Source: Thermoproteota archaeon
GTDB lineage: Archaea > Thermoproteota > Methanomethylicia > Methanomethylicales > Methanomethylicaceae
Direction of reading: 5' to 3'
NCBI GenBank assembly: GCA_029887795.1
Contig: JARXPE010000008.1
Span: 1 to 51,622, forward strand
DNA length: 51,622 nucleotides
The notes beneath the pieces were generated by a model. The model was given only the letters and a program-made list of their open reading frames with translations, was not told the DNA's origin and searched no databases. Position numbers and translations under genes: made by a program. Below, one piece after another: positions 3,631-21,011 of the stretch (position 1 is the stretch's first letter; the number at the start of each line of letters is the position of its first letter).

Positions 3631-5357
3631 ATGAGGGGCACTTTCGGCGTGGGGGAGACGATAGTTCAAGGCAGAGTCCGACCGGACCAGTTCACGGTAG
3701 ATAAAAAACCTCACAATACTGAAGGAATCGATCTCGCACAAATCCCGAATGTCCGTGAGATCCCCGGCCGAAGGTGGCGGCGGCTTCATCAAAGAGGTGC
3801 CCGTCCCTGGGACCATGCAGGAATCCTCTTGCATAACCCGGGATCAGGTTATCATGCTTGCGAGGTACGCCCTTGAGATCGAGAAGCATTACGGCATGCC
3901 CATGGACATTGAGTGGGCGCTGGATGCCGAGGACAACAGGCTCTACATAGTGCAGGCGAGACCAGAGACCGTCTGGTCGCAGAAGGAGGAGGCCAAGGCG
4001 GAGGCCCCTCGATAAAGGGCAAGAAGAAGAGGCTTCTCAGAGGTCTGCCGGCTGCCCCTGGCATAGTCTCTGGCAAGGTCAGGATTATAATCTATGTGAA
4101 GGACATCAGCCAGTTCCAAGCGGGCGAGATATTGGTCACCCAAATGACATCTCCAGACTGGGCCCCTGCTATGAGAAAGGCAAGAGCAATCGTAACTAAC
4201 AGCGGCGGTATAACGTGCCATGCCGCCATAGTCAGTCGTGAGCTAGGCATTCCGTGTATCGTTGGTGCTGTAAATGCTACATCGGTAATACAGACCGGGC
4301 AAGTCATAACCGTCGACGCCACCCACGGCATGGTTTACGAGGGAGATCTCTTGGCCGCCGAGGAGAAGAAAGAGGTCGCGCCCATCGCAGTAAACATGAC
4401 AGGCCTCTATCCGCCGACGGGCAAAGATATACATGAACCTCGGAGAGCCTGCAATGATAGACAAGTACAAGGATCTCCCATTCGACGGCATAGGCCTGAT
4501 GCGCATCGAGTTCATAATCGCCGACGTCATAGGCGAGCACCCCCTCTACCTCATCGAAAGCCACGAAGAGGAGCGCTTCATCGACAAACTCGCGAGCGGC
4601 ATCTCTTGGGTCGCCAGGAACATATATCCAAGACCCGTGGTCGTGCGGTTCAGCGACTTCAAGACAAACGAGTACAGGCAACTGAAGGGCGGGGACAAGT
4701 ACGAGCCGCAGGAGCACAACCCCATGATAGGCTGGAGAGGGGTAAGCAGGTACATCTCGCCGGTCTACGAGCCTGGCTTCAGACTTGAGTGCAAAGCGAT
4801 AAAGCGGGTCAGGGACGACTGGGGACTGAAGAACGTTTACGTCATGCTACCATTCGTCAGGACGCCATGGGAGGTCGAGAAGTGCCTAACCATAATGAAG
4901 GAGGAGGGTCTAGAGAGGTGCAGGGACTTCAAGGTCTGGCTAATGGCTGAGATCCCATCCATAATATTCATGGCAGACGAGTTCTCCAAGCTCTGCGACG
5001 GTTTCAGCGTCGGGAGCAACGACCTCACTCCTTATACTTGGTGTGGACAGGGACTCTCCCATCCTGCCGGCGCAGGACCCGCGGTACTTCGACGAAAGGG
5101 ATCCTGCGGTCCTCAGGGCGATATCTCACCTGATAAAAGTCGCCCACAGGCACGGCGTCACGGTCAGCATATGCGGGCAAGGACCAAGCGTATACCCCGA
5201 ACTCTCCTAGTTCTTGGTGAGGCAGGGGATAGACAGCCTGAGCGTTAACCCCGATGTGGTGGTCTGGACCCGAAAGATCGTTTCTGGAATAGAGCGGAGA
5301 GTCATACTCGAGGAGTTTCTGAAGAACCGCAAAGAGGAAGAGTGGCGACTGGAGTAA
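3631..5357 (+). pseudogene. ppsA: Phosphoenolpyruvate synthase, N-terminally truncated and multiply frameshifted
   Basis: PEP synthase converts pyruvate plus ATP to PEP in gluconeogenesis. Homology begins mid ATP-binding domain (FGVGETIVQGRVRPDQF near 3645), so roughly the first 200 residues are gone. It continues in changing frames: the IEWALDAEDNRLYIVQARPET part (about 3915-3975), the phosphohistidine domain with GGITCHAAIVSRELGIPC (about 4204-4257), and the PEP-binding domain from about 4430 with SVGSNDLT near 5010. At least four frame changes (near 3760, 4010, 4430 and 5030) and an in-frame TAG in PELS-stop-FLVRQ near 5207 break it. GC content is like its neighbours. A dead gene; an intact copy would have to lie elsewhere. 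Confidence 0.9.
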
Positions 5358-7523: not shown

Positions 7524-8919
7524 ATGAAGGGATTGGCTCCATTAATATCCATAGTCCTAATCATTGTCATCTCCATTACAGGATCAACCGTCACCTACGT
7601 CTTCATCAACGATTTCATCGGAGACCACGACGAGCTCTTCAATTTTACCAATAATACTCGTGGAGTCTGTAAAATCAAGAAATTACGATGTAGTGGGTGT
7701 TTATGTGAGGAATGTTGGCGCAAGCTCCGTAAACATTGATAGAGTGTACTTAATGTCACCGGATGGAGCCGCAGTTGGTATTTATGTCCTCTCTTCTCCT
7801 TTGAGCATCCCGCCCGGTCAGCTTGCTAATATCGCCGTGGAACCATGGTATCTTATGGTACCTAAGAGTGGGAACTATTATGTGAAGGTCACAACTACTG
7901 AGGGAGGAGTGGCAGTCTCCAGCACATTCTACCTCAAAAAACTTTACCTTGGAGATTGGGTCGAATATTCTAAAAATCCTGTCTTCGACCCTGACATTCG
8001 GGCTTATTACCCTTGCGTGATATATGATGCGAACAGTTTCAGTGGGCACGGAGAATCTGCAAAGTACAAGATGTGGTTCAACTCGTACAATAATATATAT
8101 ACAATTTGGCTCGCCTATTCAAATGATGGGATAACATGGAATCTGTACAACTCACCAGTATCTGGACTATCATCAAGCGCTGGTCATCCTTGGGTTCTAT
8201 ACTTTCCCGGAGGTTTCTCAGGAAAGAACAATGGAAATAACCCCAGCAGTGCAACAATGTACTACCGTATATGGTATTGGGATACGACAAAACTGTATAC
8301 CGTCGAGGCAATTAGGTATGCTGAATCGCCAGACGGCCTGAACTGGTATAACGACCAGCCCCTTCAGAATGGTGTGGTGCCGATTATAACTGGGACTGAC
8401 TCTGACTGGAACAAAGGGTCCTACGGTCCCACATGCGTCCTTTACAACCCGTCAGCCTCAAATAGCGGCACGAATTGGATGTTTATGATGTACTACGACG
8501 GCACACCAGGCAACAATGAGAGCATTGGTATTGGCTTCTCAAGCGACGGCGTTACATGGACTGGCTATGACAAGAACGGCGACGGAAAGGCTGATCCTGT
8601 TCTCACAGGTAGCGGCTCCGGCTGGGATAAAAACTATGTGTATTCCTGTACAGTTCTTAAGATCGGGTCCACATACCATATGCTGTACAGCGGAGGAGTT
8701 GAAAGCACAAACGAAGGGATTGGCTACGCCACATCGAGCGACGGTCTGACATGGACCAAGGACCCAAACAATCCCGTCTTTCACAAAAGCGATGGCTTAG
8801 CATGGAGAAACATTCGAACTTACAATCCTGCGGTCGTTGAAGTGGAGGGCACATTCAAGATGTGGTTCACTGGTGTCAGCGGATCCAATTACGCAATTGG
8901 CTATGCCACCCCTGAGTGA
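7524..8919 (+). pseudogene. Surface beta-propeller protein with pilin-like N terminus, one frameshift
   Basis: Frame 1 from ATG 7524 encodes MKGLAPLISIVLIIVISITG, the hydrophobic N terminus of archaeal pilin/DUF1628-type exported proteins. After a +1 shift between about 7625 and 7665, homologous coding continues to 8919. The body holds repeated propeller blades of the GH43/GH32-like kind, each with a YS-DG-TW motif (AYSNDGITWNLY, AESPDGLNWY, GFSSDGVTWTGY, ATSSDGLTWTKD). A DKNGDGKADP loop resembles a calcium site. Likely an extracellular, membrane-anchored carbohydrate-binding or glycosidase-like protein; catalytic residues cannot be assigned. The only lesion is one indel, so it may be a sequence error. 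Confidence 0.65.
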
Positions 8920-9405: not shown

Positions 9406-10565
9406 ATGACTATTCTCCTCGAAAAATTTAAAAGTCATAGCTCCCTAGCGTTTTGCAATTCATTAACGACAGGGTGTACTTTTTTGGAAGGTGATAAACC
9501 GATTGTTGTAGTCTGCTTAGATGGGTGCTCTTGGGATTACATAAACGCCGCCAAAATGCCGTTTCTGAAGAGCTCCTCTATGAATAATTACTGCTGTAAT
9601 GCCATGGTGCCCACCGTCACCAACATAAACAACGACTCTATCTTGACTGGTGAATTTCCAGAAGTGCATGGCATAGTCGGGAACTACTACTACGACAAAA
9701 AGACCGGGACAGAAAGGCAGATGAATCATTCTTCCATCCTTAAGTGTAAGACCCTTTTAGAAAAGGCATCTTTGATGGGGAAGAAACCCGTCATCATAAC
9801 AGCAAAGGACAAGCTGCGGCGCCTATTTGAGAGCCCAGATGTGGTCACGATCTCCTCAGAGGAACCTCCTCAGGAGATCGTCGATAAAGTCGGGCGCCCC
9901 CCGGAATATACACTTCTGAGGTGAACATATGGCTCTTCGATGTGGCGAGATTCTTTATTGAGAGAGGATATGACCTCGTTTACGTCTCCACTACCGACTA
10001 TGTCTCTCACATTTACGAACCAAACAGCGATGAAGCCATAGAATACATGGAAAGAATTGACGAGAAGCTCTCAAAACTCATGGAAAAAGATGCGATCTTT
10101 GCCCTAACCTCAGACCACGGGATGAATAAAAAATCTCTGAAGATCAATCTACAGGCGCTCCTCAAAAATCATGGCATAGACTCTTTGGTAATTCCAATTA
10201 TAAAGGACGATTACTTCGTGCACCACAAAAACCTTGGAGGCTCTGTTTATGTATATTTAAATAACAGGAATCTAAATCGTACAAAAGAAGTCTTGGTCGA
10301 CCAAGAAGGTGTCGAGCTTGTCCTCACCTCAGAAGAAGCACACAAAGAACTAATATTACCCTTGGAGAGTGTGGGTGACCTTCTGGTCTTGGGCGCCAAG
10401 GATGTAGTCTTTGGTAACACGAGCACGACTCCAGTGGAAGATGTGGAGATAAGATCGCACGGGTCGATGCACGAAAGGGTCGTTCCTGTCATCTCTAATT
10501 ATGATCTAGGTAATATCCGTTACAACAAAGACGTTATACCTTCCCTATTCCGCCTCCTAACATAA
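9406..10565 (+). pseudogene. phnA: Phosphonoacetate hydrolase (alkaline phosphatase superfamily), one-base frameshift
   Basis: PhnA hydrolyses phosphonoacetate to acetate and phosphate using two zinc ions. The N-terminal half has VVCLDGCSWDYI (metal Asp), the nucleophile region VPTVTNINNDSILTGEFP with Thr at the usual position, HGIVGNYYYD and ITAKDKLRRL. The second half has YVSTTDYVSHIYEP and LTSDHGMN (metal Asp/His pairs), VHHKNLGG and RSHGSMHERVVP. All catalytic motifs are kept. The frame breaks near 9904: adding one base restores PEIYTSEVNIWLFD. Together with intact motifs, this suggests a very recent lesion or a sequencing error. Encoded on the opposite strand from the adjacent PbfA-like gene (stops facing each other). 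Confidence 0.85.
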
Positions 10566-10718
10566 TGGCTCCTGAAAACTCTGCAAAATAATGCATTAAA
10601 ATCAACTCTGCTGTGCTTTTTGTTATGTTTCAAAAATATGCGAGGGGGACTTTTTCTCGTTCCTTCACTTAGGTCCCTCAAGCTGTTATATCCATTATAT
10701 TTGGCGGATGACTGTTGA

Positions 10719-12095
10719 TCATTTTTGCTTATTCTCGACTTCTTCAATGGAACTTTCTATGATGTCAAGCGCCACATCCATCTCTTCGCGGGATATCGTC
10801 AATGGTGGCATCAGCGAGAGAATGTTTCCTCCTGTGGTCTTGAAGGCCAAACCCTTCCTAAAGCATTTGTACATGACCTCTTCCGCTTCGTCCGATGCCT
10901 TTGTTCTCTTCTCCCTGTCTCTCACGAGCTCAATCGCGAGGAACAGCCCAACCCCTCTGACGTCTCCTATGAACCTGTGCCTCTCCTTCATCTCCTCCAT
11001 CCTCTTCATTGCGTACCTTCCCATAACATCCGCCCTTTCCACTAGCCTCTCGTCCTTTATGGTATCGAGCACTGCAATTCCTGCAGCCGCGCATACTGGG
11101 TTCTTCTCATGCGTAAAGTGTCCTATTGACCAGTTCTCCACTTTTTCGGCTAACTCTTTCCTTGCAATGATGCCAGCGATGGGCATTATCCCGCCGCCCA
11201 GCGACTTCCCAATTGCCAGAATGTCTGGCACAATATCGTAATGCTCACAGGCGAACATCTTGCCGGTCCTCCCCAGACCCGACAATATCTCGTCAAATAC
11301 GAGGGCAGCGCCCTCCTCCTCACAACCTTCCTTGACGATCTTCCAGTACTCCTTAGGTGGTACCACGACATGTGCCCCACGGATGGGCTCCGCAATAACC
11401 GCGGCAACGTCCCCCGCATTTTTATCCATGACATACTTTATCATTTCAGCACATGTCAAATTGCAGCTCTCGACATCCTTGTGACCGTAGGGGCACCTAT
11501 AACAGTAAGGAGGTGGCACATGTTCCGTTCCAGAGACGACTGGCAGTTTTGCCCTAAAGATGGCCTCCCCTCCAATGCTCTTCGCGCCCATGGTTGCTCC
11601 ATGGAACGAGTCCCACCATGAGACTGTTTTTATCTTCCCGCTGGATCTAACTGACAGATCGTACGCCATTTCAATCGCCTCAGCACCTCCTGGCGCAAAG
11701 AGCACTCTAGAATTCTCTGCCCCCATTGGCGAGATCTCGACGAGCCTCTTGGCAAGCTCTATCGCCCTTATGTTCGTGTACCTCCTCGGGCAGAATGAGA
11801 GATCGTCTATCTGCTCTTTGATCGCCTTAATCACCCTTGGATTTGAGAACCCCACGTTATGAACGGTATTTCCATGGAAGTCCAAATACTTCTTACCGGA
11901 ATAGTCTTCAATATAGCTACCATAAGCCTTTCTGACCACATTTAAGCAAGGTGTGGAAAGGGACTGATGGATGAAGTACTTTGCGTCCTCATCCAAAACG
12001 CTCCTGATGTATTCGGGGAGTCCCTCCAGCCACTCCCTCCTCTTTGGCGAGATGCTAAGATCTCCCTCTGCCTTTAGTTTATCTATATTGAGCAT
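10719..12095 (-). CDS. pbfA: PbfA-like class III PLP enzyme, (R)-1-hydroxy-2-aminoethylphosphonate ammonia-lyase candidate
   Basis: 458-residue fold-type I PLP enzyme of aminotransferase class III. The PLP Asp is D268 (VFDEILSGLGRTGKM) and the Schiff-base Lys is K297 (AIGKSLGGG). Stretches FCPRRYTN, WWDSFHGA, SIGGEAIFR and GTEHVPPPYCYRCPYG resemble the PbfA subgroup found beside phnA and phnX. PbfA removes ammonia from (R)-1-hydroxy-2-aminoethylphosphonate to give phosphonoacetaldehyde, the substrate of the phnX product. A four-Cys insert near 198-215 (CYRC...C...C) may bind metal. Divergent from the regulator gene, with a perfect palindrome between. A generic 4-aminobutyrate-type aminotransferase is the alternative. 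Confidence 0.7.
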   Translation of the reverse strand: MLNIDKLKAEGDLSISPKRREWLEGLPEYIRSVLDEDAKYFIHQSLSTPCLNVVRKAYGSYIEDYSGKKYLDFHGNTVHNVGFSNPRVIKAIKEQIDDLSFCPRRYTNIRAIELAKRLVEISPMGAENSRVLFAPGGAEAIEMAYDLSVRSSGKIKTVSWWDSFHGATMGAKSIGGEAIFRAKLPVVSGTEHVPPPYCYRCPYGHKDVESCNLTCAEMIKYVMDKNAGDVAAVIAEPIRGAHVVVPPKEYWKIVKEGCEEEGAALVFDEILSGLGRTGKMFACEHYDIVPDILAIGKSLGGGIMPIAGIIARKELAEKVENWSIGHFTHEKNPVCAAAGIAVLDTIKDERLVERADVMGRYAMKRMEEMKERHRFIGDVRGVGLFLAIELVRDREKRTKASDEAEEVMYKCFRKGLAFKTTGGNILSLMPPLTISREEMDVALDIIESSIEEVENKQK

Positions 12096-12142
12096 ATTCT
12101 CCCCTACTGATGGGGAGCTAAACTCCGTTTATTAGCATTAAT

Positions 12143-12156
12143 GTTTACTAGTAAAC
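12143..12156. promoter_or_regulatory. Perfect 14-bp palindrome, candidate operator of the phosphonate regulon
   Basis: GTTTACTAGTAAAC reads the same on both strands. It lies in the 118-bp divergent gap between the PbfA-like gene and the HTH regulator, 21 bp upstream of the regulator's TATA-like TTAAATAAAA (12178-12187). A close variant, GTTTACTTGTTAAC, occurs before the MFS transporter at 15183-15196. Position upstream of the TATA box suits an activator. Confidence 0.6.
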
Positions 12157-12177
12157 CTAAAAAAATAAGATAAAAGA

Positions 12178-12187
12178 TTAAATAAAA
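12178..12187 (+). promoter_or_regulatory. TATA box of the regulator-phnX operon
   Basis: TTAAATAAAA is centred about 31 bp before ATG 12214, giving a very short or absent 5' leader. No Shine-Dalgarno sequence precedes this ATG, as expected for a near-leaderless first gene. Confidence 0.5.
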
Positions 12188-12213
12188 TCAAAACAATACT
12201 ATTTGGGGGCTCT

Positions 12214-12987
12214 ATGTATTCAGTAACTATACAGAAGGATCCTCACCACTGTCCGTTTTCCGACGTTACTATGAATTGTGACGTTAGGTTACTCCACACA
12301 TGCGTCCAATTCAATGGCTCTACCGAGAACGTGTGGAGCCACATATCCTCCGCCGAGAAAGAGGAGCTTCAGAAATCGATCCACAGGCTCAAGTCCCATC
12401 CAAAAATCGCAAAGCTCGAAATAGTCAATCTGACCAAAAACTTTGCCTCCATTAGGGTTGACGTAATGTCAACCAAAACCATTGCGCCCATAATTTTGAA
12501 CGGAGGATACTTGATAACGCCGATATTGGCTTTGGACGGCAAGGAGTTCTGGAGGGCTATTTTCTCTACAAAAAGCCAGCTGAATAAAGCTCTAAATGGG
12601 ATAATGAAAAATTACTCTCTGAAGGTGGTTGAGGTTCTGGAGCTGGACCCGATGGTCTTTTTCAATCTGATCCAAAATTTTGAATATGTCCTCTCAATAA
12701 TCAACACAATAAATGACCTGACAACGAAGGAAAAACAACTTCTCATGACCGCGATCAAAAAGGGATTCTACGACGAGCCCAAGCGAATCAACACGATCGA
12801 GCTTGCGAACCTTTTTGGGGTCTCAAAGGTGGCGATCTCCCGACGAATAAGAAGGCTAGAGCGTAAACTCCTTCCTACCCTATGGGCTTTGGCATCAAGA
12901 TCACAGGATGTAAACATGTTAACATCAAACTATATCGGAAATGAGGGGGAGATCGCACCTAGGGTAGGAAAAAATGTGGAAGTATAG
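12214..12987 (+). CDS. HTH-10 (bacterio-opsin activator-like) transcriptional regulator
   Basis: 257 residues. The N-terminal half (1-160) is a sensor-like alpha/beta region opening with HHCPFSDVTMNCDVRLLHTC, whose His/Cys cluster could bind a metal or ligand. The C terminus (about 180-230) is the HTH: LTTKEKQLLMTAIKKGFYDEP then IELANLFGVSKVAISRRIRRLERK, the arrangement of archaeal HTH-10 proteins. First gene of the operon, its end overlapping phnX by 14 bp, and divergent from the PbfA-like gene. I infer that it controls phosphonate use through the GTTTAC palindromes. Confidence 0.85.
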   Translation: MYSVTIQKDPHHCPFSDVTMNCDVRLLHTCVQFNGSTENVWSHISSAEKEELQKSIHRLKSHPKIAKLEIVNLTKNFASIRVDVMSTKTIAPIILNGGYLITPILALDGKEFWRAIFSTKSQLNKALNGIMKNYSLKVVEVLELDPMVFFNLIQNFEYVLSIINTINDLTTKEKQLLMTAIKKGFYDEPKRINTIELANLFGVSKVAISRRIRRLERKLLPTLWALASRSQDVNMLTSNYIGNEGEIAPRVGKNVEV

Positions 12988-13771
12988 AGGTCCCGTAAAA
13001 TTAGTGATATTGGATACTGCAGGAACAATCTGCGACGGTCCACAAGATCTAAGGCACATCTGGCCAGAAGATGATGGACTTGGCGTGAAGGCACCAGTGG
13101 TTCCATTCTATGAGACTCTGAAATCCCGGGGCGTGATCTTGAACTGGACCGCCATAAGGAAACCTATGGGTCTTTTCAAAAAAGACCACCTTCGTACACT
13201 ATTAGAAATGCCAGAGGCTAAGGCGCAATTTAAGAAGGTTCACGGGAGAGATTGGACTGAGAAGGACTTGGACGAGATGTTCGAGGACTACAAGAAGATG
13301 CTCAACGAAGTCATTGTTCACCCAGAACTCGCCAAGCCGATCCCAGGGGCTGTTGAGGTAATTCAAAAACTCAGGGATTATGGGAAGCTCATAGGAAACA
13401 CCACAGGATACACTGCTGAGGCCTCTAAACTGTTGAACACAAAGCTGGAGAAGGGATACGGAATAAAGTTTGACTTCGCGGCCACACCCGAGATCGTGAA
13501 GGCAAGGAGACCCTATCCATGGATGGTCATGAAGCACATGGAAGTTTTGAATGTTTATCCTCCTGCAGCGGTCGTAAAGGTCGGAGACACCAAGCATGAT
13601 ATTAGGGAGGGCAAATTCGCCGGCGCATGGACGGTTGGGCTTTACAAGACAGGGAACGACGACTTTGAGACCCTAGCTGCGGAGGAGCCTGACTACCTGA
13701 TCCCATCCATAGCAGAGCTCCTTCCTGTGATCTGGGACATTGAGAACCGCCTCAAGGAAGGCAGATACTGA
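12974..13771 (+). CDS. phnX: Phosphonoacetaldehyde hydrolase (phosphonatase)
   Basis: HAD-superfamily enzyme that cleaves phosphonoacetaldehyde to acetaldehyde and phosphate. The nucleophile Asp14 sits in VILDTAGT (the usual Trp/second Asp replaced by Thr15). The family's Schiff-base lysine is present as Lys69 in PMGLFKKDHLR, which separates phosphonatases from other HAD enzymes. Further motifs: GNTTGYTAEA (motif II), RRPYPWMVMKHM and KVGDTKHDIREGKFAGAWTVGL (motif IV). 265 residues, full length. ATG overlaps the regulator's stop by 14 bp; the next gene follows after 11 bp with a GGTGATCC ribosome site. Confidence 0.93.
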   Translation: MWKYRGPVKLVILDTAGTICDGPQDLRHIWPEDDGLGVKAPVVPFYETLKSRGVILNWTAIRKPMGLFKKDHLRTLLEMPEAKAQFKKVHGRDWTEKDLDEMFEDYKKMLNEVIVHPELAKPIPGAVEVIQKLRDYGKLIGNTTGYTAEASKLLNTKLEKGYGIKFDFAATPEIVKARRPYPWMVMKHMEVLNVYPPAAVVKVGDTKHDIREGKFAGAWTVGLYKTGNDDFETLAAEEPDYLIPSIAELLPVIWDIENRLKEGRY

Positions 13772-13779
13772 GGTGATCC
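13772..13779 (+). promoter_or_regulatory. Ribosome binding site deciding the start of the second aminotransferase
   Basis: GGTGATCC lies directly after the phnX stop and 3-4 bases before GTG 13783, complementary to the archaeal 16S 3' end (anti-SD GATCACC). It supports initiation at 13783 rather than at the GTG at 13876 and therefore places the TAG at 13843-13845 inside the coding sequence. Confidence 0.75.
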
Positions 13780-13782
13780 AAA

Positions 13783-15126
13783 GTGTCTGCCTCAGACCCT
13801 GAGGAGAGGTATAAGCAACTACACCCGGGCTCCTATCTAGTCTAGCAGGAGGCTACTAAATACCTCCCTGGCGGAGTGTCCGCCTACGGGCAATTCAGGA
13901 AACCCTTCCCTCTTTATTTCAGAAAGGCTAAAGGTGCGAGACTCTGGGACGTAGACGGCAATGAGTACATCGATGTCCACTGCGGTTACGGACCCATTCT
14001 CTTAGGGCATGGACATCCCACAATAATAAACGCAATCGAGGAGGCGAAAGAGAGGGGTTTACAGTACGGTGCGCCTTCTGACGTGATGGTAGAGTGGGCA
14101 AAGCTCATCATAAAGCACGTCCCTTCCATAAAGAAGATCCGATTCGTCAGCACAGGATCTGAAGCTGTGACATACGCGGTGAGGTTATGCAAGGGGTACA
14201 CGAAGCGCTCCAAGATATGCAAACCCGAAGGGTCGTACCACGGCACCTCGGACTGGTCGCTTGCGAGCACTGCAGAATACGGTGGTCCGCCAGAAGCTCC
14301 GACGCCCGTACCGCACTCCATGGGGCTTGACCACGCTATAGACAAGTTTGTCATTATCCCTTGGAACGATCCCGACAATGCCGTGAAGATAATAAAGCAG
14401 AACGCAAAGGATCTGGCATGTGTCCTGATGGAGCCCATTTCAGGCACAGGTCTTGGCTTCGTAGAGCCCACCAAAGAATACCTAAAGGCACTGAGGGAGG
14501 TAACGGCTGAGAACGATATCCCTCTGATCTTCGACGAAGTAATGGTGGGATTCCGCTGGGGTAATATGAGCTGTGCCCAAGGCTACCTCGGTGTAAAGCC
14601 CGACGTCACAATCTTGGGCAAGGTTATAGCGGGCGGAGCTCCAGTTGGCGCCTACGGTGGGAGAGAGGATATCATGGAGGTGGTATCCCCGCTCCATGGA
14701 AAAACTCCACAGGAAAGGGTATACCAGAGCGGTACCTTCTGTGGAAATCCCTTCACCGCCTCGGTAGGGCTTGCCGTCCTGAAGTACTTGGATGCTCACG
14801 AGAACGAAGTGTACAGCCACGTCAACAACATCGCAGAGAGCATACGAAAAGGTGTTAGAGACCTCGTTACAGATATGAATATCCAGGCGCAGGTCGTCGG
14901 CAAGTTCTCGAACTTCGAGGTGCACTTTACCGACAAGCCCTACACCAACCTGAGGGAGTTCCTCAAGGTCAATAAGGACAAGCTGAGAAGAGTCGACCTA
15001 GAGCTAATAAACCGCGGCATCTTCAAGCTCCCTGGACACTTCGCGTTCACATGTTTCCCGCACACCAAAGAGGACGTAGCAAAAATCTTAGAAGCCTACC
15101 AGGACGCACTCAAAATCGTGAGCTAA
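13783..15126 (+). pseudogene. Class III aminotransferase (glutamate-1-semialdehyde aminomutase-like) interrupted by in-frame TAG at codon 21
   Basis: Fold-type I PLP enzyme; the PLP Lys is codon 280 (ILGKVIAGGAPVGAYGG) and the Asp lies in LIFDEVMVGFR. From GTG 13783 the frame reads ERYKQLHPGSYLV, then TAG (13843-13845), then QEATKYLPGGVSAYGQFRKP, which is the usual family N-terminal helix and PGGV loop. Homology is thus continuous across the stop. Either a nonsense mutation, an error, or amber readthrough. Its place between phnX and the transporter suggests an amine-removing step on 2-aminoethylphosphonate, since no class V PhnW is present; this is inference. Poly-T terminator follows. Confidence 0.75.
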
Positions 15127-15158
15127 AAGATTTTTCTTTTTTTTATTTTTATTTTTAA
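15127..15158 (+). terminator. Poly-T terminator after the regulator-phnX operon
   Basis: Immediately after the stop codon come several T-runs (TTTTTCTTTTTTTTATTTTT), the typical intrinsic archaeal termination signal without a needed hairpin. Confidence 0.6.
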
Positions 15159-15182
15159 GCATTCTTATTATCGTCAAAACAC

Positions 15183-15196
15183 GTTTACTTGTTAAC
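15183..15196. promoter_or_regulatory. Second operator candidate (GTTTACTTGTTAAC)
   Basis: Differs from the perfect palindrome at 12143-12156 at two of 14 positions and keeps the GTTTACT half. It lies about 30 bp upstream of a TATA-like TTTTTTAAAT (about 15225-15234) that precedes the transporter ATG at 15248, the same order of elements as at the regulator promoter. Confidence 0.5.
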
Positions 15197-15247
15197 GACA
15201 AGATATTACCATTCTTGGGACATCCTTTTTTAAATTGAGGTCTATCT

Positions 15248-16511
15248 ATGAGTCTAACACAAGAGGCATTGTCTTTGTTAAAATCTTGGAGAATTCAAAT
15301 TACGCTGGCCTCATGTCTAGCATACGCCCTCTACTACTGGGGCAGGTACAACTACAGCGGTCTAGGTCCCTTTGTAAAGTCCGCCCTCGCTTGGCCCGCT
15401 TGGCAGTGGGGAGTATTCGCCTCGGCAATGACTGCTGGCTATGCCATCGGGCAGTTCATCAACGGCGCACTAATTGACTACTACGGTCCCAGAAAGGTTT
15501 ACAGTATAGGCGCGGTGGGCAGCGGACTTGCAAACATCGCCACTGGTCTGTTTCCATTCTTCCCATCGATGAGTACTTCTTGGTTCTTGAATGGGTATTT
15601 CCAAGCATCAGGGTCGCCGAGCTACGGCAAGCTTTTCACCTGTTGGTTCCCCCCAAAAGCGAGGGGGCTACCAAATGCACTTAACGACGCAGCAAGGCTT
15701 ATTGGGTCTTTGACAATTGTTCCATTGGCAGCCTATATAGCCACGGTGATGGGGTGGCAGTGGGGGTTTATTATTCCAGGAATAATCCTCTTCCCCGCCG
15801 CCGTTATGATATGGTTTTAATCAGGGATCAGCCCAAAGAGTGCGGGATAAAGGGATGTGACTGGATCCCGGAGACCGAAAAGAAGAGCCTAGTAAAGGAG
15901 ATGGTGACTGCTTACACCTTTGTTTGGAGACGGTGGCGTTTCCTGAGCCACTCCGTGGCTTATGGCATGAGCCAGTTCACTAGGTTCGGGATTTACACAT
16001 GGATTCCCATATACGCCGTGGAAGTCCTTGGCTTTAATCCGATAGCAGGTGCTGCACTGCTTTCCGTCTCTCCTTTAGCTGGTGCCATAGCCACGGTAGT
16101 CTTCGGGTGGCTGGCAGACAAGCTAGGATTCGGATCAAGAAGAATCCTGCTAGGTCTTGGCTTGACTATATCCGCAATATCGCTTTTGGTAATCGGGTGG
16201 TACCCGCACCTTCCGACCGCTGCATACGTCGGGCTCGTCTTCCTTGTGGGAGCATTCACTGAGGGCCTTGATACTGTTTACTTCTTGGTAGTCATGGACA
16301 AATTCGGAAAAGCTGGTAAGGCTGGTACTGCCTATGGCAGTCTGAACGCAGTTGGCAAGGTGTTCGGGACGTTCTCCTCGGCAATACTCGGGTTCGTGCT
16401 GACCATTTCGGGCTGGATCTCTGCCTTTAACTGCTCGCCATATTGGGCTTCATCGGCACAGTTATGATGCTCCCTGTGACTGCCGCTTGGATAAGGGGCG
16501 ACATCGAATAA
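15248..16511 (+). pseudogene. GlpT-like MFS transporter (organophosphate/phosphonate uptake candidate), two frameshifts
   Basis: Twelve-helix MFS protein of the organophosphate:phosphate antiporter kind. N-terminal half: YALYYWGRYNYSGLGP in helix 1 and the loop DYYGPRKVYS after helix 2. A base is missing in the T-run near 15814 (FF-L-IRDQPKECG restored by one T) and another near 16428 (restores LLAILGFIGTVMMLP). It ends with TAA at 16509-16511. Everything else is conserved, so these may be sequencing errors. Located last in the phosphonate island with its own operator-like site; it likely imports a phosphonate in exchange for phosphate. Substrate is inferred. Confidence 0.75.
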
Positions 16512-16645: not shown

Positions 16646-17065
16646 TTATTCGCGAACATCCATCAAAGAGAGATTTATCTGCCTAACTGACCTGTTCGCC
16701 TTTAAACCGTCTATCAGTCCCCTCAGCCTCTGAGCCTCCCCTCTAACCACTATGACCTCGAGACAAGCATCTTCATTCACGTGGAAGTGGAAGAAGGCTG
16801 AGATTATATCGCCGAACTCATGCTGGAGCCTTAGCTGCTCCTCCCCCTTCTCATTCTTTTGGTAGAGCACAGTCAATGTGGCAACAACTCTGCCCTTGAG
16901 GCTCTCAATACCCCTGTACTCAGAGATGTATTTTCTCAGCGCCTGCCTTAGGACCTCTGACCTGCTAGCGCACCACTCCCTGCCCAGTAACTTGTCCAAC
17001 TCCGCCAGCAGATCGTCTGGTATGGATAGGCTTATGACCACCATAATAAAGCCCCACATTCGCAA
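16646..17065 (-). CDS. nikR: NikR-like metal-responsive repressor
   Basis: Ribbon-helix-helix domain at the N terminus (ISLSIPDDLLAELDKLL, SRSEVLRQALRKYI) followed by an ACT-like metal-binding domain. The nickel-site residues of NikR are present: His in LQHEFGD, two His in FFHFHVNEDA and Cys in DACLEVIVV. The frame opens at 17065, but ATG 17044 (MVVISLSIP) gives the standard length. Downstream of the Zn/Mn ABC operon on the same strand, separated by about 250 bp; it may regulate that transporter or a nickel system elsewhere. Metal specificity cannot be settled from sequence. Confidence 0.85.
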   Translation of the reverse strand: MRMWGFIMVVISLSIPDDLLAELDKLLGREWCASRSEVLRQALRKYISEYRGIESLKGRVVATLTVLYQKNEKGEEQLRLQHEFGDIISAFFHFHVNEDACLEVIVVRGEAQRLRGLIDGLKANRSVRQINLSLMDVRE

Positions 17066-17313
17066 TTTACTTTTTTAGTTATTACCCCAATTTTATTTTT
17101 AATATTTGATTTTACTTTTAACTTCATTTTCAAATTGTTTTTATCCTGACTATTAATTTTTCCAACAAAAATCCTTCCCGTGAAGCAAGGGTGCTTAGAA
17201 TGGTCTAGCCCCGACCCTGAATCTAAACTTAAGCCTAAACCTAAAACTTGATCCAAATTTAAACAACTCCTTTTCAAATCAAACTTTGAACAACCCTGAA
17301 ATACTTACAATCA

Positions 17314-18150
17314 TCATCTACTTTTCACCCTAACTAGGGCAGCAGTAGCCAAGTAAATCAACACCATGGTGAAGACTATTATCCCGCTCGCCGCCACGTT
17401 ATAGAATGAGGAGATTATTATCCCCGCCACCACACTCACCAGCCCGATTATGATTGTTGAAGCCACCGTCTTGGAGAAAGAGACTCTAAGCTGCAGCGCC
17501 GTAAGTGCTGGAATGACTATCAGCGCAACCACCAGTATGATCCCTATTATTTTGATTGAGAGTGTTATGGTTATGGCCACTATTAGATTGAACATAGCTG
17601 ATATCGCATTCACCGGCACACCCATCATCCTTGCGCTCCTTTCGTCAAACGTGATCGCCAAGAGCTCCCTATGTAACAACATCAGAAAAGCAACGATTAC
17701 AATTCCGAGAATCAAGATCATCAATAGATCTGACCTGCTAATTGTTAATATGGAGCCAAAGAGGTAGCTGAATAGGTCGACACTGAACCCCCCGGCAACA
17801 CTTATGATTATCAGACCAGTCGAGAACCCAATCGCCAGAATTAGGGCTATTGCTGAGTCGGATTCTGCAAGCCCCTTTCTCTTCATATAACTCATCCCAA
17901 AGACCGACACTGTCGATATCCCAAGAGCTGTGATGAGCGGGTCCACTCCCATCAGGAGTCCAAGTGCCACTCCGCCGAATGCGGTATGTGCCACACCGTC
18001 CACGATCATCGCCTCCTTCCTGAGAACCAGAAACAGTCCGATCCACGCGCATGCAAACCCCGCCATAATCCCTCCCAAAATTGCATTCTGGAAGAACTGG
18101 TAGCCGAGTAGCTCCATCAGCGAGATTGATGGGTAGGTAAAGCTCGTCAA
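17314..18150 (-). CDS. znuB: ABC-3 family metal permease (ZnuB/MntB-type)
   Basis: 278 residues with about eight to nine membrane helices, matching the ABC-3 permeases of zinc, manganese or iron uptake. Typical motifs: GGIMAGFACAWIGLFLVLRK after helix 1, HTAFGGVALGLLMGVDP, and FDERSARMMGVPV before the last helices. The start overlaps the ATPase stop by 4 bp (ATGA type), showing translational coupling. It forms the membrane channel for the solute received from the binding protein encoded upstream. Confidence 0.9.
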   Translation of the reverse strand: MTSFTYPSISLMELLGYQFFQNAILGGIMAGFACAWIGLFLVLRKEAMIVDGVAHTAFGGVALGLLMGVDPLITALGISTVSVFGMSYMKRKGLAESDSAIALILAIGFSTGLIIISVAGGFSVDLFSYLFGSILTISRSDLLMILILGIVIVAFLMLLHRELLAITFDERSARMMGVPVNAISAMFNLIVAITITLSIKIIGIILVVALIVIPALTALQLRVSFSKTVASTIIIGLVSVVAGIIISSFYNVAASGIIVFTMVLIYLATAALVRVKSR

Positions 18151-18923
18151 GCCTTGAACTCCCCCTTACATTCGTGCCTGTGAAATACGAAGTGGAAGTG
18201 TTCGCCGTACGCCTTCCTCAAAACTCCTTCTATATCAACATCCGGTCTTATCTCCGCGACATTTACCTCCTTGTTGACACATATCACCTTTGACATCCTG
18301 CAGAAGACCGCCGAAAGATCATGCGAAACCATCATTATGGTTATGCCCCTCCTTTGGTTGAGGTCACTCATCTTTTGATAGAACTTTTCTTGGGTAATGG
18401 CATCTATTCCCGCAACAGGCTCGTCCAAAATTATCACCTCAGGGTCCCTAACCAGCGCCATGGCGACGAACATCCTTTGCTTCTGTCCTCCTGAGAGCTC
18501 GCCTATCCTCTTATCTGCGACCTCTGATAGCCCCATAAACTCCAAAGCTGCGTCAACCTCCTCCCAGTCCCTTTTCTTTAACCTCCTTCCGATCGGGTTC
18601 CTCCCTAGCCTGCCCAACGAGACTAGCTCCCTCACCGAAAGGGGGAAGTTCGCATCGAAGTTGATGGCGTCCTGAGGAACAAATGCAACTTTTTCCCATT
18701 CGTCAAAGTCTTCTATGTCTTTACTAAACAGCCTAATACTGCCACTCATCCTTGGGATCTGCCCTAAGATTGAGAGGAGTAACGTGGTCTTTCCACCCCC
18801 ATTCGGACCGACTATCCCAAAATAATCTCCCTTCATTACATCGAAGTTCGCATCTTTTATTACAAGGGATCCGGACCTACTAACACTCAGATTTCTGACC
18901 TCTATCACTACGTCTTTATTCAA
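18147..18923 (-). CDS. znuC: Metal ABC transporter ATPase (ZnuC/MntA-type)
   Basis: 258 residues: Walker A GPNGGGKTTLL near 40-50, Q-loop FVPQDAINFD, signature LSGGQKQRMF, Walker B EVIILDEPVAGID and H-loop VSHDLS, all intact. The His/Glu-rich C terminus (EHFHFVFHRHECKGE) could bind the transported metal or act as a metal sensor. Middle gene of the binding protein-ATPase-permease operon. Confidence 0.93.
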   Translation of the reverse strand: MNKDVVIEVRNLSVSRSGSLVIKDANFDVMKGDYFGIVGPNGGGKTTLLLSILGQIPRMSGSIRLFSKDIEDFDEWEKVAFVPQDAINFDANFPLSVRELVSLGRLGRNPIGRRLKKRDWEEVDAALEFMGLSEVADKRIGELSGGQKQRMFVAMALVRDPEVIILDEPVAGIDAITQEKFYQKMSDLNQRRGITIMMVSHDLSAVFCRMSKVICVNKEVNVAEIRPDVDIEGVLRKAYGEHFHFVFHRHECKGEFKA

Positions 18924-19005
18924 AATTCCCGCCCCCTATTTGGCATATTAAAATCACAAAATTTCTCCAAAAACGCGCACTAACGGTTGGCATTTCTGAG
19001 CCCCT

Positions 19006-19980
19006 CTAAGGCATGGTTAACCCTGCTTTGAGTGCCTTGAGGTTCGCCTCCATCTGCCCAATGTAATCTCTCCCGTCCACTGGTCCTAAGGCGAGATAGA
19101 GCTTCATCACCTGCACATTCCATCCGGTCCTCGCCTCTACCTCTCTCTTTAACATCATCACATATGAATCCGAGTAAGCAGGGTCTAAATAGATCACCTT
19201 AATGTTGTCCCTAGTCATCATATCCACCAGATCTTTTATAGACTGAAGGCTAGGCTGTTGATCCGCTGAAATGCCGATGATCCCTTGCTGCCTGAAACCG
19301 TACCTGGCAGCAAGATAACCGTACGCCTCATGCGCAACGATGATTACGTCTCTGGTCTTGTTTGCAAGCTCCTCTTGGTACTTGCTGTCCAAATCCTCCA
19401 GACGTTCCTTGAGCACCTCGAACCTTGCTTGATAATATTCTCTACCAAAAGAGTCCTCCTCGACTAATGCTGAAAATATCTTCTCCGCCTGCCTCGTCGC
19501 CATATAAGGGGATAGCCATGTGTGAGGATCATAATTGGCATGAATTCGAGCATGACCGTCTTCCTCTGAGCTCTCGTTCCCTAATGGTATGAGCTCAAGC
19601 CCTTCGGTGGTGTTTACAATGAGTTTTCCGCTGGTGTTGATCGAATTGAGTATGTCTTCCATCCACCAGTCGAGCCCACCTCCATTGAGAATAATGATAT
19701 CGGCATTGCTCACCGCGATTATGTCCGATACGGAAGGCTGCCAAGAGTGGACCTCAGTATTGTATGGAATTAGGGTCCTAACAGATACGCGGTCTCCGCC
19801 GATCTCTTCTGCCAAATAGGCAAGTGGATAGAACGTCGCCAGAACCTTCACCTTCTTACCGGGGGCATTTTCTGAGTTCGGGGAGAAGATCGCCAGAGAC
19901 ACTCCAACAATGACTATGATCAATGCGAGTGCCAGCCACTTCCTTCGCAACAGATTCACCACGTTTATAATACCTGCCAT
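19006..19980 (-). CDS. znuA: Metal-binding lipoprotein-like solute receptor (ZnuA/TroA family)
   Basis: TroA-type cluster A-I receptor. An N-terminal signal anchor (LALALIIVIVGVSLAIF) follows RRK. Metal ligands are in place: His in EVHSWQPS, His in DPHTWLSP, His in VAHEAYGYLA and Asp in YLDPAYSDSY. An acidic/His loop (SSEEDGHARIHANYDPH) precedes the second ligand as in zinc receptors. ATG 19980 is preferred; the frame stays open to 20073 but the extra 31 residues precede the signal. The A/T-rich block at 19985-20040 holds the promoter. Captures Zn or Mn outside the cell for ZnuBC. Confidence 0.9.
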   Translation of the reverse strand: MAGIINVVNLLRRKWLALALIIVIVGVSLAIFSPNSENAPGKKVKVLATFYPLAYLAEEIGGDRVSVRTLIPYNTEVHSWQPSVSDIIAVSNADIIILNGGGLDWWMEDILNSINTSGKLIVNTTEGLELIPLGNESSEEDGHARIHANYDPHTWLSPYMATRQAEKIFSALVEEDSFGREYYQARFEVLKERLEDLDSKYQEELANKTRDVIIVAHEAYGYLAARYGFRQQGIIGISADQQPSLQSIKDLVDMMTRDNIKVIYLDPAYSDSYVMMLKREVEARTGWNVQVMKLYLALGPVDGRDYIGQMEANLKALKAGLTMP

Positions 19981-20067
19981 TCTTATTAATTTTTCCAAAA
20001 TTTTTATTAAAAAATAATATTCTACTTTGAAAAACTTAATAACAATTCGTGCGATTGGTATGGTGCG

Positions 20068-21011
20068 ATGCATTTGGCGCCCTTCTGGGCTGAAACCGCG
20101 AGACTCTCGACAAGACTATTTGATGGTGGCAAATCCCTCCCCCTAAGGTGGATGGAACGGATCATAAAAAGGGCGATGAACAACATACAAATTAACATCT
20201 CAATTAAGAATCTACTGACTTTATTCGAGGTAGGCATAAACGACGCCCCCTCCCTAAAGGTGGCGGATGTTGGAATCTCCGTCAACAATGCTGTCGATGT
20301 GGCGAAAGAATCTGCAGACATAATCCTCCTCAACAAGGATCTCACGGTTCTAAACGAAGGGGTCATCGAATGGAGAAAGACCTTCGGCATCACCATGAAG
20401 TACATCCTGATGGCTATATGCTCAAACTTCGGCAACATGTTCAGCGCTGCCGGCGCATCCATATTTCTTCCCTTTCTCCCCATGCTGCCAATACAGATCC
20501 TTCTCAAAAACTTCCTCTATGGTGTTTCGGAGTTTGCAATAACCACAGACAGCGTTGACGAAGAATACATGCAAAACCCAAAGAGGATGAACATTCCTTT
20601 GATAAGGCGATTCATGGTTTACTTTGCGGGATAAGCTCGCTCTTTGACTTCTCGACGTCCTTCCTCCTACTCACCGCATTCGCAGCTTTGGACAAGCCCC
20701 CCCTCCAGAGAGCTCGGTTTATAGAATCCATATGCACTCAAACACTTGTGGTGTTTATAATTAGGAAGAGGCGAACCCCATTCTATAGGAGTATGCCAAG
20801 CAGGACGCTCTTCCTTACGACATTCTTTATTGTCTAATTTGCCATATCCCTCCCCTTGACCGTTGTGGGATCTTGGTTTGGGTTCGTAGCTCCTCCTGCC
20901 ATGTTCTATCCATTTTTGTTAATAATCGTGGGATCATATCTATTCATCGTGGAGTTAGCAAAGACACTCTTCTATCGCCATTACAGAGTACATCTATTCA
21001 CTTCGGTATGA
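20068..21011 (+). pseudogene. mgtA: C-terminal remnant of a Mg2+ P-type ATPase (MgtA family)
   Basis: From about 20233 the frame carries VGINDAPSLKVADVGISV, the hinge motif of P-type ATPases, then the KESADIILLNKDL region and the C-terminal membrane helices typical of MgtA/MgtB (NFGNMFSAAGASIFLPFLPM, later FIESICTQTLVVFIIRKRR). A frameshift near 20632 and an in-frame TAA near 20836 interrupt it. The phosphorylation DKTGT site and the first 600 or so residues are missing. Diverges from the znu operon but no functional link is implied. Remnant. Confidence 0.85.

Follow-up and report, generated by a model that had tools for sequence, protein, structure and literature searches.

Open reading frame and profile searches place six genes at positions 9406–16511 of the window, the whole 51,622-nucleotide stretch of DNA analysed here, which belongs to a 1.25 Mb Thermoproteota MAG (G000, 92% complete). 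They encode a PhnA-like phosphonoacetate hydrolase, PbfA, an HTH_10-type regulator, PhnX, a HemL-type class III PLP enzyme and an MFS transporter of the organophosphate antiporter (OPA) type. A sequence-only reading of this DNA had put the six genes at these positions and interpreted them as a phosphonate-catabolism island with an archaeal-type regulator and a GlpT-like importer. Our searches support that interpretation and the gene list behind it, but the reading had overlooked interruptions in three of the six genes and a candidate operator. The island is syntenic, with all reading frames open, in two genomes of the same genus, G001 and G002 (in the latter as far as its short contig extends), and since the gene set is kept in both congeners, it is not a chance assemblage. 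In a third congener, G003, PbfA, PhnA and the HemL-like enzyme were unmatched at the thresholds used, and PhnX drew weak HAD matches alone. Adjoining the island, window positions 7564–8919 encode a protein whose C-terminal part gives a glycoside hydrolase 130-like match; directly downstream, at 16646–20073, lie a NikR-like regulator and an apparent metal ABC transporter set, the latter recognized from open reading frames only.

PbfA (10719–12095, minus strand) scores 617 bits against NF049939, above the curated equivalog cut-off of 525, and is 46–48% identical to the PbfA proteins encoded beside phnW-phnX in Azospirillum or phnW-phnA-phnY in Ruegeria. PhnX, a phosphonoacetaldehyde hydrolase of the HAD type (12974–13771, plus strand), overlaps the regulator reading frame by 14 nt. 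It reaches 193 bits with TIGR01422, below the curated cut-off of 220, and aligns over 195 residues to the PDB phosphonatases 1fez and 1swv, keeping the RKPMGLxK lysine motif; a DTAGT motif is also present in the sequence. We take the aspartate to be the HAD nucleophile and the lysine of PMGxxK to be the Schiff-base lysine.

The PhnA-like gene (9406–10565, plus strand; alkaline phosphatase superfamily) is broken in two in the window copy, where one nucleotide is missing near 9891–9903; both halves match TIGR02335. The intact copies of G001 and G002 score 214 bits against this model, below its curated cut-off of 407.55. Aligned with 1ei6 and with PhnA proteins from other archaea and from bacteria, the protein keeps all of the motifs CLDG, VTN, TAKDKLR, TTDYxxH, SDHGM and RSHGS; these presumably provide the metal ligands, the nucleophilic threonine and the substrate-binding lysines (TAKDKLR). 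By their residues, not by their scores, PhnX and PhnA are read as divergent members of their families. Among 398 sampled genomes of the phylum, PbfA exceeds its cut-off in five and a PhnA-like match occurs in six, while a PhnX match of comparable strength (about 190 bits) is found only in the three island-bearing congeners. The earlier statement that C–P bond hydrolysis is mainly bacterial is correct for PhnX- and PhnA-type enzymes in terms of how common they are, although other Thermoproteota and haloarchaeal plasmids carry PhnA-like genes as well. The plasmid genes, from Halomarina, Haladaptatus and Halorussus (L249, L250 and L251; 37–40% identity), lie near genes for MFS, PEP mutase/isocitrate lyase family, TcuA and MmgE/PrpD proteins, and in two cases near ThDP-enzyme genes; these loci may represent another archaeal phosphonate cluster.

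The transporter gene (15248–16511, plus strand; PgtP/GlpT/UhpC-like) carries two 1-nt deletions in the window, near 15815 and near 16429. TIGR00881, a PgtP-type model, is the best family both for the two window pieces and for the intact G001 copy, which scores 159 bits, below the cut-off of 408. With the GlpT model TIGR00712, the N-terminal piece reaches 53 bits against a cut-off of 632. AepP, a GlpT-related permease, carries 2-aminoethylphosphonate (AEP) in Pseudomonas (PMC8316502).

The probable island regulator (12214–12987, plus strand) matches PF04967 with 57 bits and is kept in G001 and G002. The divergent promoter between pbfA and the regulator gene contains a perfect 14-bp palindrome, GTTTACTAGTAAAC (12143–12156), and a near-copy, GTTTACTTGTTAAC (15183–15196, plus strand), lies upstream of the transporter gene and is conserved in G001. 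GTTTACTAGTAAAC is identical in G001 and G002, inside a block conserved across all three genomes despite strong divergence of their synonymous sites. A genome-wide pattern search found GTTTACTWGTWAAC confined to the island in G000, G001 and G002, and absent from the island-less G003, from G063 and G077 of a second Thermoproteota family, and from a Bathyarchaeota genome. The palindrome is a candidate operator, and the HTH_10 protein may be its binder.

Relative to G001, the window copies of the PhnA, HemL-like and transporter genes together lack single nucleotides at three sites and contain one amber codon. We compared reading frames for 94 orthologues shared with G001, six of them the island genes, with the window's own genome covered through sampled stretches. 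Outside the island, one of about 88 orthologues is frameshifted, against three of six island genes interrupted (Fisher p = 0.0006, rising to 0.011 if the count also includes genes containing internal stops, of which some are probably spurious ORFs). Such an excess would fit a pseudogene cluster decaying in the window's lineage, a scenario that we consider somewhat unlikely. PbfA, the regulator and PhnX are intact, and dN/dS between the window and its congeners is 0.01–0.08 for all six genes, the broken ones included. Moreover, the PEP synthase/PEP-utilising enzyme domains encoded near the island (3913–5248) lie in two frames with an apparent frameshift, suggesting a poorly sequenced stretch. 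Because of these low ratios and the broken PEP synthase nearby, the interruptions point to assembly error or very recent mutation.

Searches for the remaining enzymes of known phosphonate pathways yielded no PhnW (TIGR02326) above cut-off in the window's own genome (best match 124 bits against 400.8; 92% complete) or in the relatives tested, and the class V matches of this genome are generic class V aminotransferases. The pathway is therefore short of a transaminase. Nor did any PhnY (TIGR03250) exceed its cut-off genome-wide (best match 188 bits against 635.65; one generic aldehyde dehydrogenase, in the same 92% complete genome), which leaves the PhnA branch without a supplier of phosphonoacetate. 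For this reason, the second exit through PhnA that the sequence-only reading suggested is a possible route only. The absence of PhnW and PhnY, noted earlier for the island, thus extends to the whole genome at the curated cut-offs. PEP mutase had no match in the six genomes searched, and a role for the island in phosphonate synthesis was rejected on this basis.

The HemL-like class III PLP enzyme is encoded at 13783–15126 (plus strand), with a GTG start at 13783 and an in-frame TAG at 13843–13845 where the congeners have TGG; the G001 copy is intact and 95% identical to that of the window. Pyrrolysine at the amber codon is unlikely, as no PylS scored above cut-off in the window's own genome and the congeners have TGG. 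The enzyme scores 358 bits with TIGR00713 (cut-off 527) and 370 with NF000818 (cut-off 398), and a congener copy scores 366 and 377, so that both proteins fall below both cut-offs. In an alignment to glutamate-1-semialdehyde aminomutase, Gln or His replaces Arg32 and the position of Glu406 is empty. We take both to be functional positions of the aminomutase, with Arg32 presumably serving the substrate carboxylate. A separate HemL in the same genome retains both residues.

In a 47-sequence tree, the HemL-like proteins form a single, long-stemmed clade near HemL (support 100/100). The sequence-only reading had recognized a second class III PLP enzyme here, and held that its pathway would fail if this enzyme grouped with GABA or ornithine aminotransferases and the neighbourhood were not conserved; the enzyme is present, it belongs to a HemL-related subfamily rather than to those aminotransferases, and the neighbourhood is kept in two congeners. 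Members of the subfamily (at least 62% identity) were found in Methanomethylicales, in the second Thermoproteota family (G063 and G077) and in one Bathyarchaeota genome, beyond which the next best matches are at about 42% identity or lower. On plasmids, no relative exceeds 36% identity, and those found are HemL or generic aminotransferases, with no bacterial member of the subfamily among them.

Every HemL-like locus found, across the three archaeal lineages, has PbfA and/or PhnA nearby. In the G063/G077 family (L082 6982–12704 and L083 6293–11976), the genes for the HemL-like enzyme and PbfA have as neighbours a PhoU-like gene and one for a third class III aminotransferase; PhnX and PhnA neither adjoin these genes nor were detected in the two genomes at the thresholds used. 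In Bathyarchaeota bin16, the HemL-like gene is accompanied by PhnA and an MFS transporter in a locus (L087 9093–12304) with some masked or gapped parts, and no PbfA or PhnX was found in the 21 kb examined. It is highly improbable that the island gene encodes an ordinary glutamate-1-semialdehyde aminomutase of tetrapyrrole synthesis, present there by coincidence. Its best NCBIfam and PDB matches are indeed HemL, and archaeal and bacterial HemL are about 37% identical to it, yet it scores under both HemL cut-offs, has lost the Arg32 and Glu406 positions, and tracks phosphonate genes in three lineages. We rejected it as the housekeeping HemL from the tree and the alignment, with the separate HemL of the same genome retaining both residues.

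Given the sub-cut-off HemL scores, the lost residues, the distinct clade, the PbfA and PhnA neighbours and the lack of PhnW, we infer an AEP transaminase activity for the HemL-like enzyme. We tentatively propose that a HemL-derived class III enzyme is an unrecognized archaeal AEP transaminase that has taken the place of PhnW in three or more archaeal lineages, within a regulated phosphonate pathway of methanogen-related archaea; we regard this proposal as plausible, if somewhat short of probable. Less plausible, and in our judgment fairly unlikely, is that the enzyme uses another aminophosphonate (e.g., converting phosphonoalanine to phosphonopyruvate, or by an aminomutase-type exchange) and feeds PhnA instead of PhnX. 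The Bathyarchaeota locus, where the gene adjoins PhnA without PbfA or PhnX in 21 kb, and an origin on the aminomutase branch of class III would both agree with such a substrate. In Methanomethylicales, however, the gene lies downstream of PhnX in the same direction, and in another family it lies downstream of PbfA, and PbfA and PhnX are both linked to phosphonoacetaldehyde. We favour AEP transamination, as a putative step of the scheme below.

We are confident that the island serves as a unit of hydrolytic phosphonate catabolism, in which importer, PbfA, HemL-like enzyme, PhnX, PhnA and HTH_10 control belong to one scheme. As predicted from gene content, aminophosphonates would be imported by the organophosphate-type MFS carrier. 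PbfA would convert (R)-1-hydroxy-2-aminoethylphosphonate to phosphonoacetaldehyde with elimination of ammonia, and the HemL-like enzyme would form phosphonoacetaldehyde from AEP by transamination, in place of class V PhnW. PhnX could then hydrolyse phosphonoacetaldehyde to acetaldehyde and phosphate, and PhnA could hydrolyse phosphonoacetate to acetate and phosphate. Through the GTTTACTAGTAAAC palindrome, the HTH_10 protein may control two promoters, the divergent one of pbfA/regulator-phnX-hemL and that of the transporter gene.

According to a phylogenomic survey, phosphonate metabolism is lacking in most archaea (PMC11066067), and the survey in the paper that described the discovery of PbfA was restricted to bacterial genomes (PMC8154272). 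In the literature searched on Verstraetearchaeota, Methanomethylicia and Bathyarchaeota, we found no account of such a phosphonate island. The chemistry of PbfA, PhnX and PhnA is already known from bacteria; the novelty lies in the archaeal setting, in the lack of PhnW, and in the presence of both the HemL-like enzyme and a palindrome confined to the island. An archaeal unit that is conserved, seems to regulate itself and has a candidate new transaminase would extend hydrolytic C–P bond cleavage to Methanomethylicales and Bathyarchaeota, and the island offers a short list of enzymes open to direct expression and assay.

Among known systems, the island resembles the bacterial pbfA-phnW-phnX and pbfA-phnW-phnA-phnY clusters (Zangelmi et al. 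2021, PMC8154272), such as the Azospirillum and Ruegeria loci, in combining PbfA with PhnX or PhnA, a dedicated importer and a regulator. It differs from them in having a HemL-like class III enzyme and no PhnW or PhnY, an archaeal HTH_10 regulator instead of a LysR protein, and an MFS carrier instead of an AEP ABC transporter. At the family level, this carrier resembles AepP (PMC8316502), both being organophosphate antiporter-type MFS carriers encoded beside AEP genes. The HemL-like enzyme shares with glutamate-1-semialdehyde aminomutase the class III, fold-type I architecture, the PLP lysine and about 37% identity, and departs from it in the replacement of Arg32 by Gln or His, the absence of Glu406, its inserts and its phosphonate neighbourhood.
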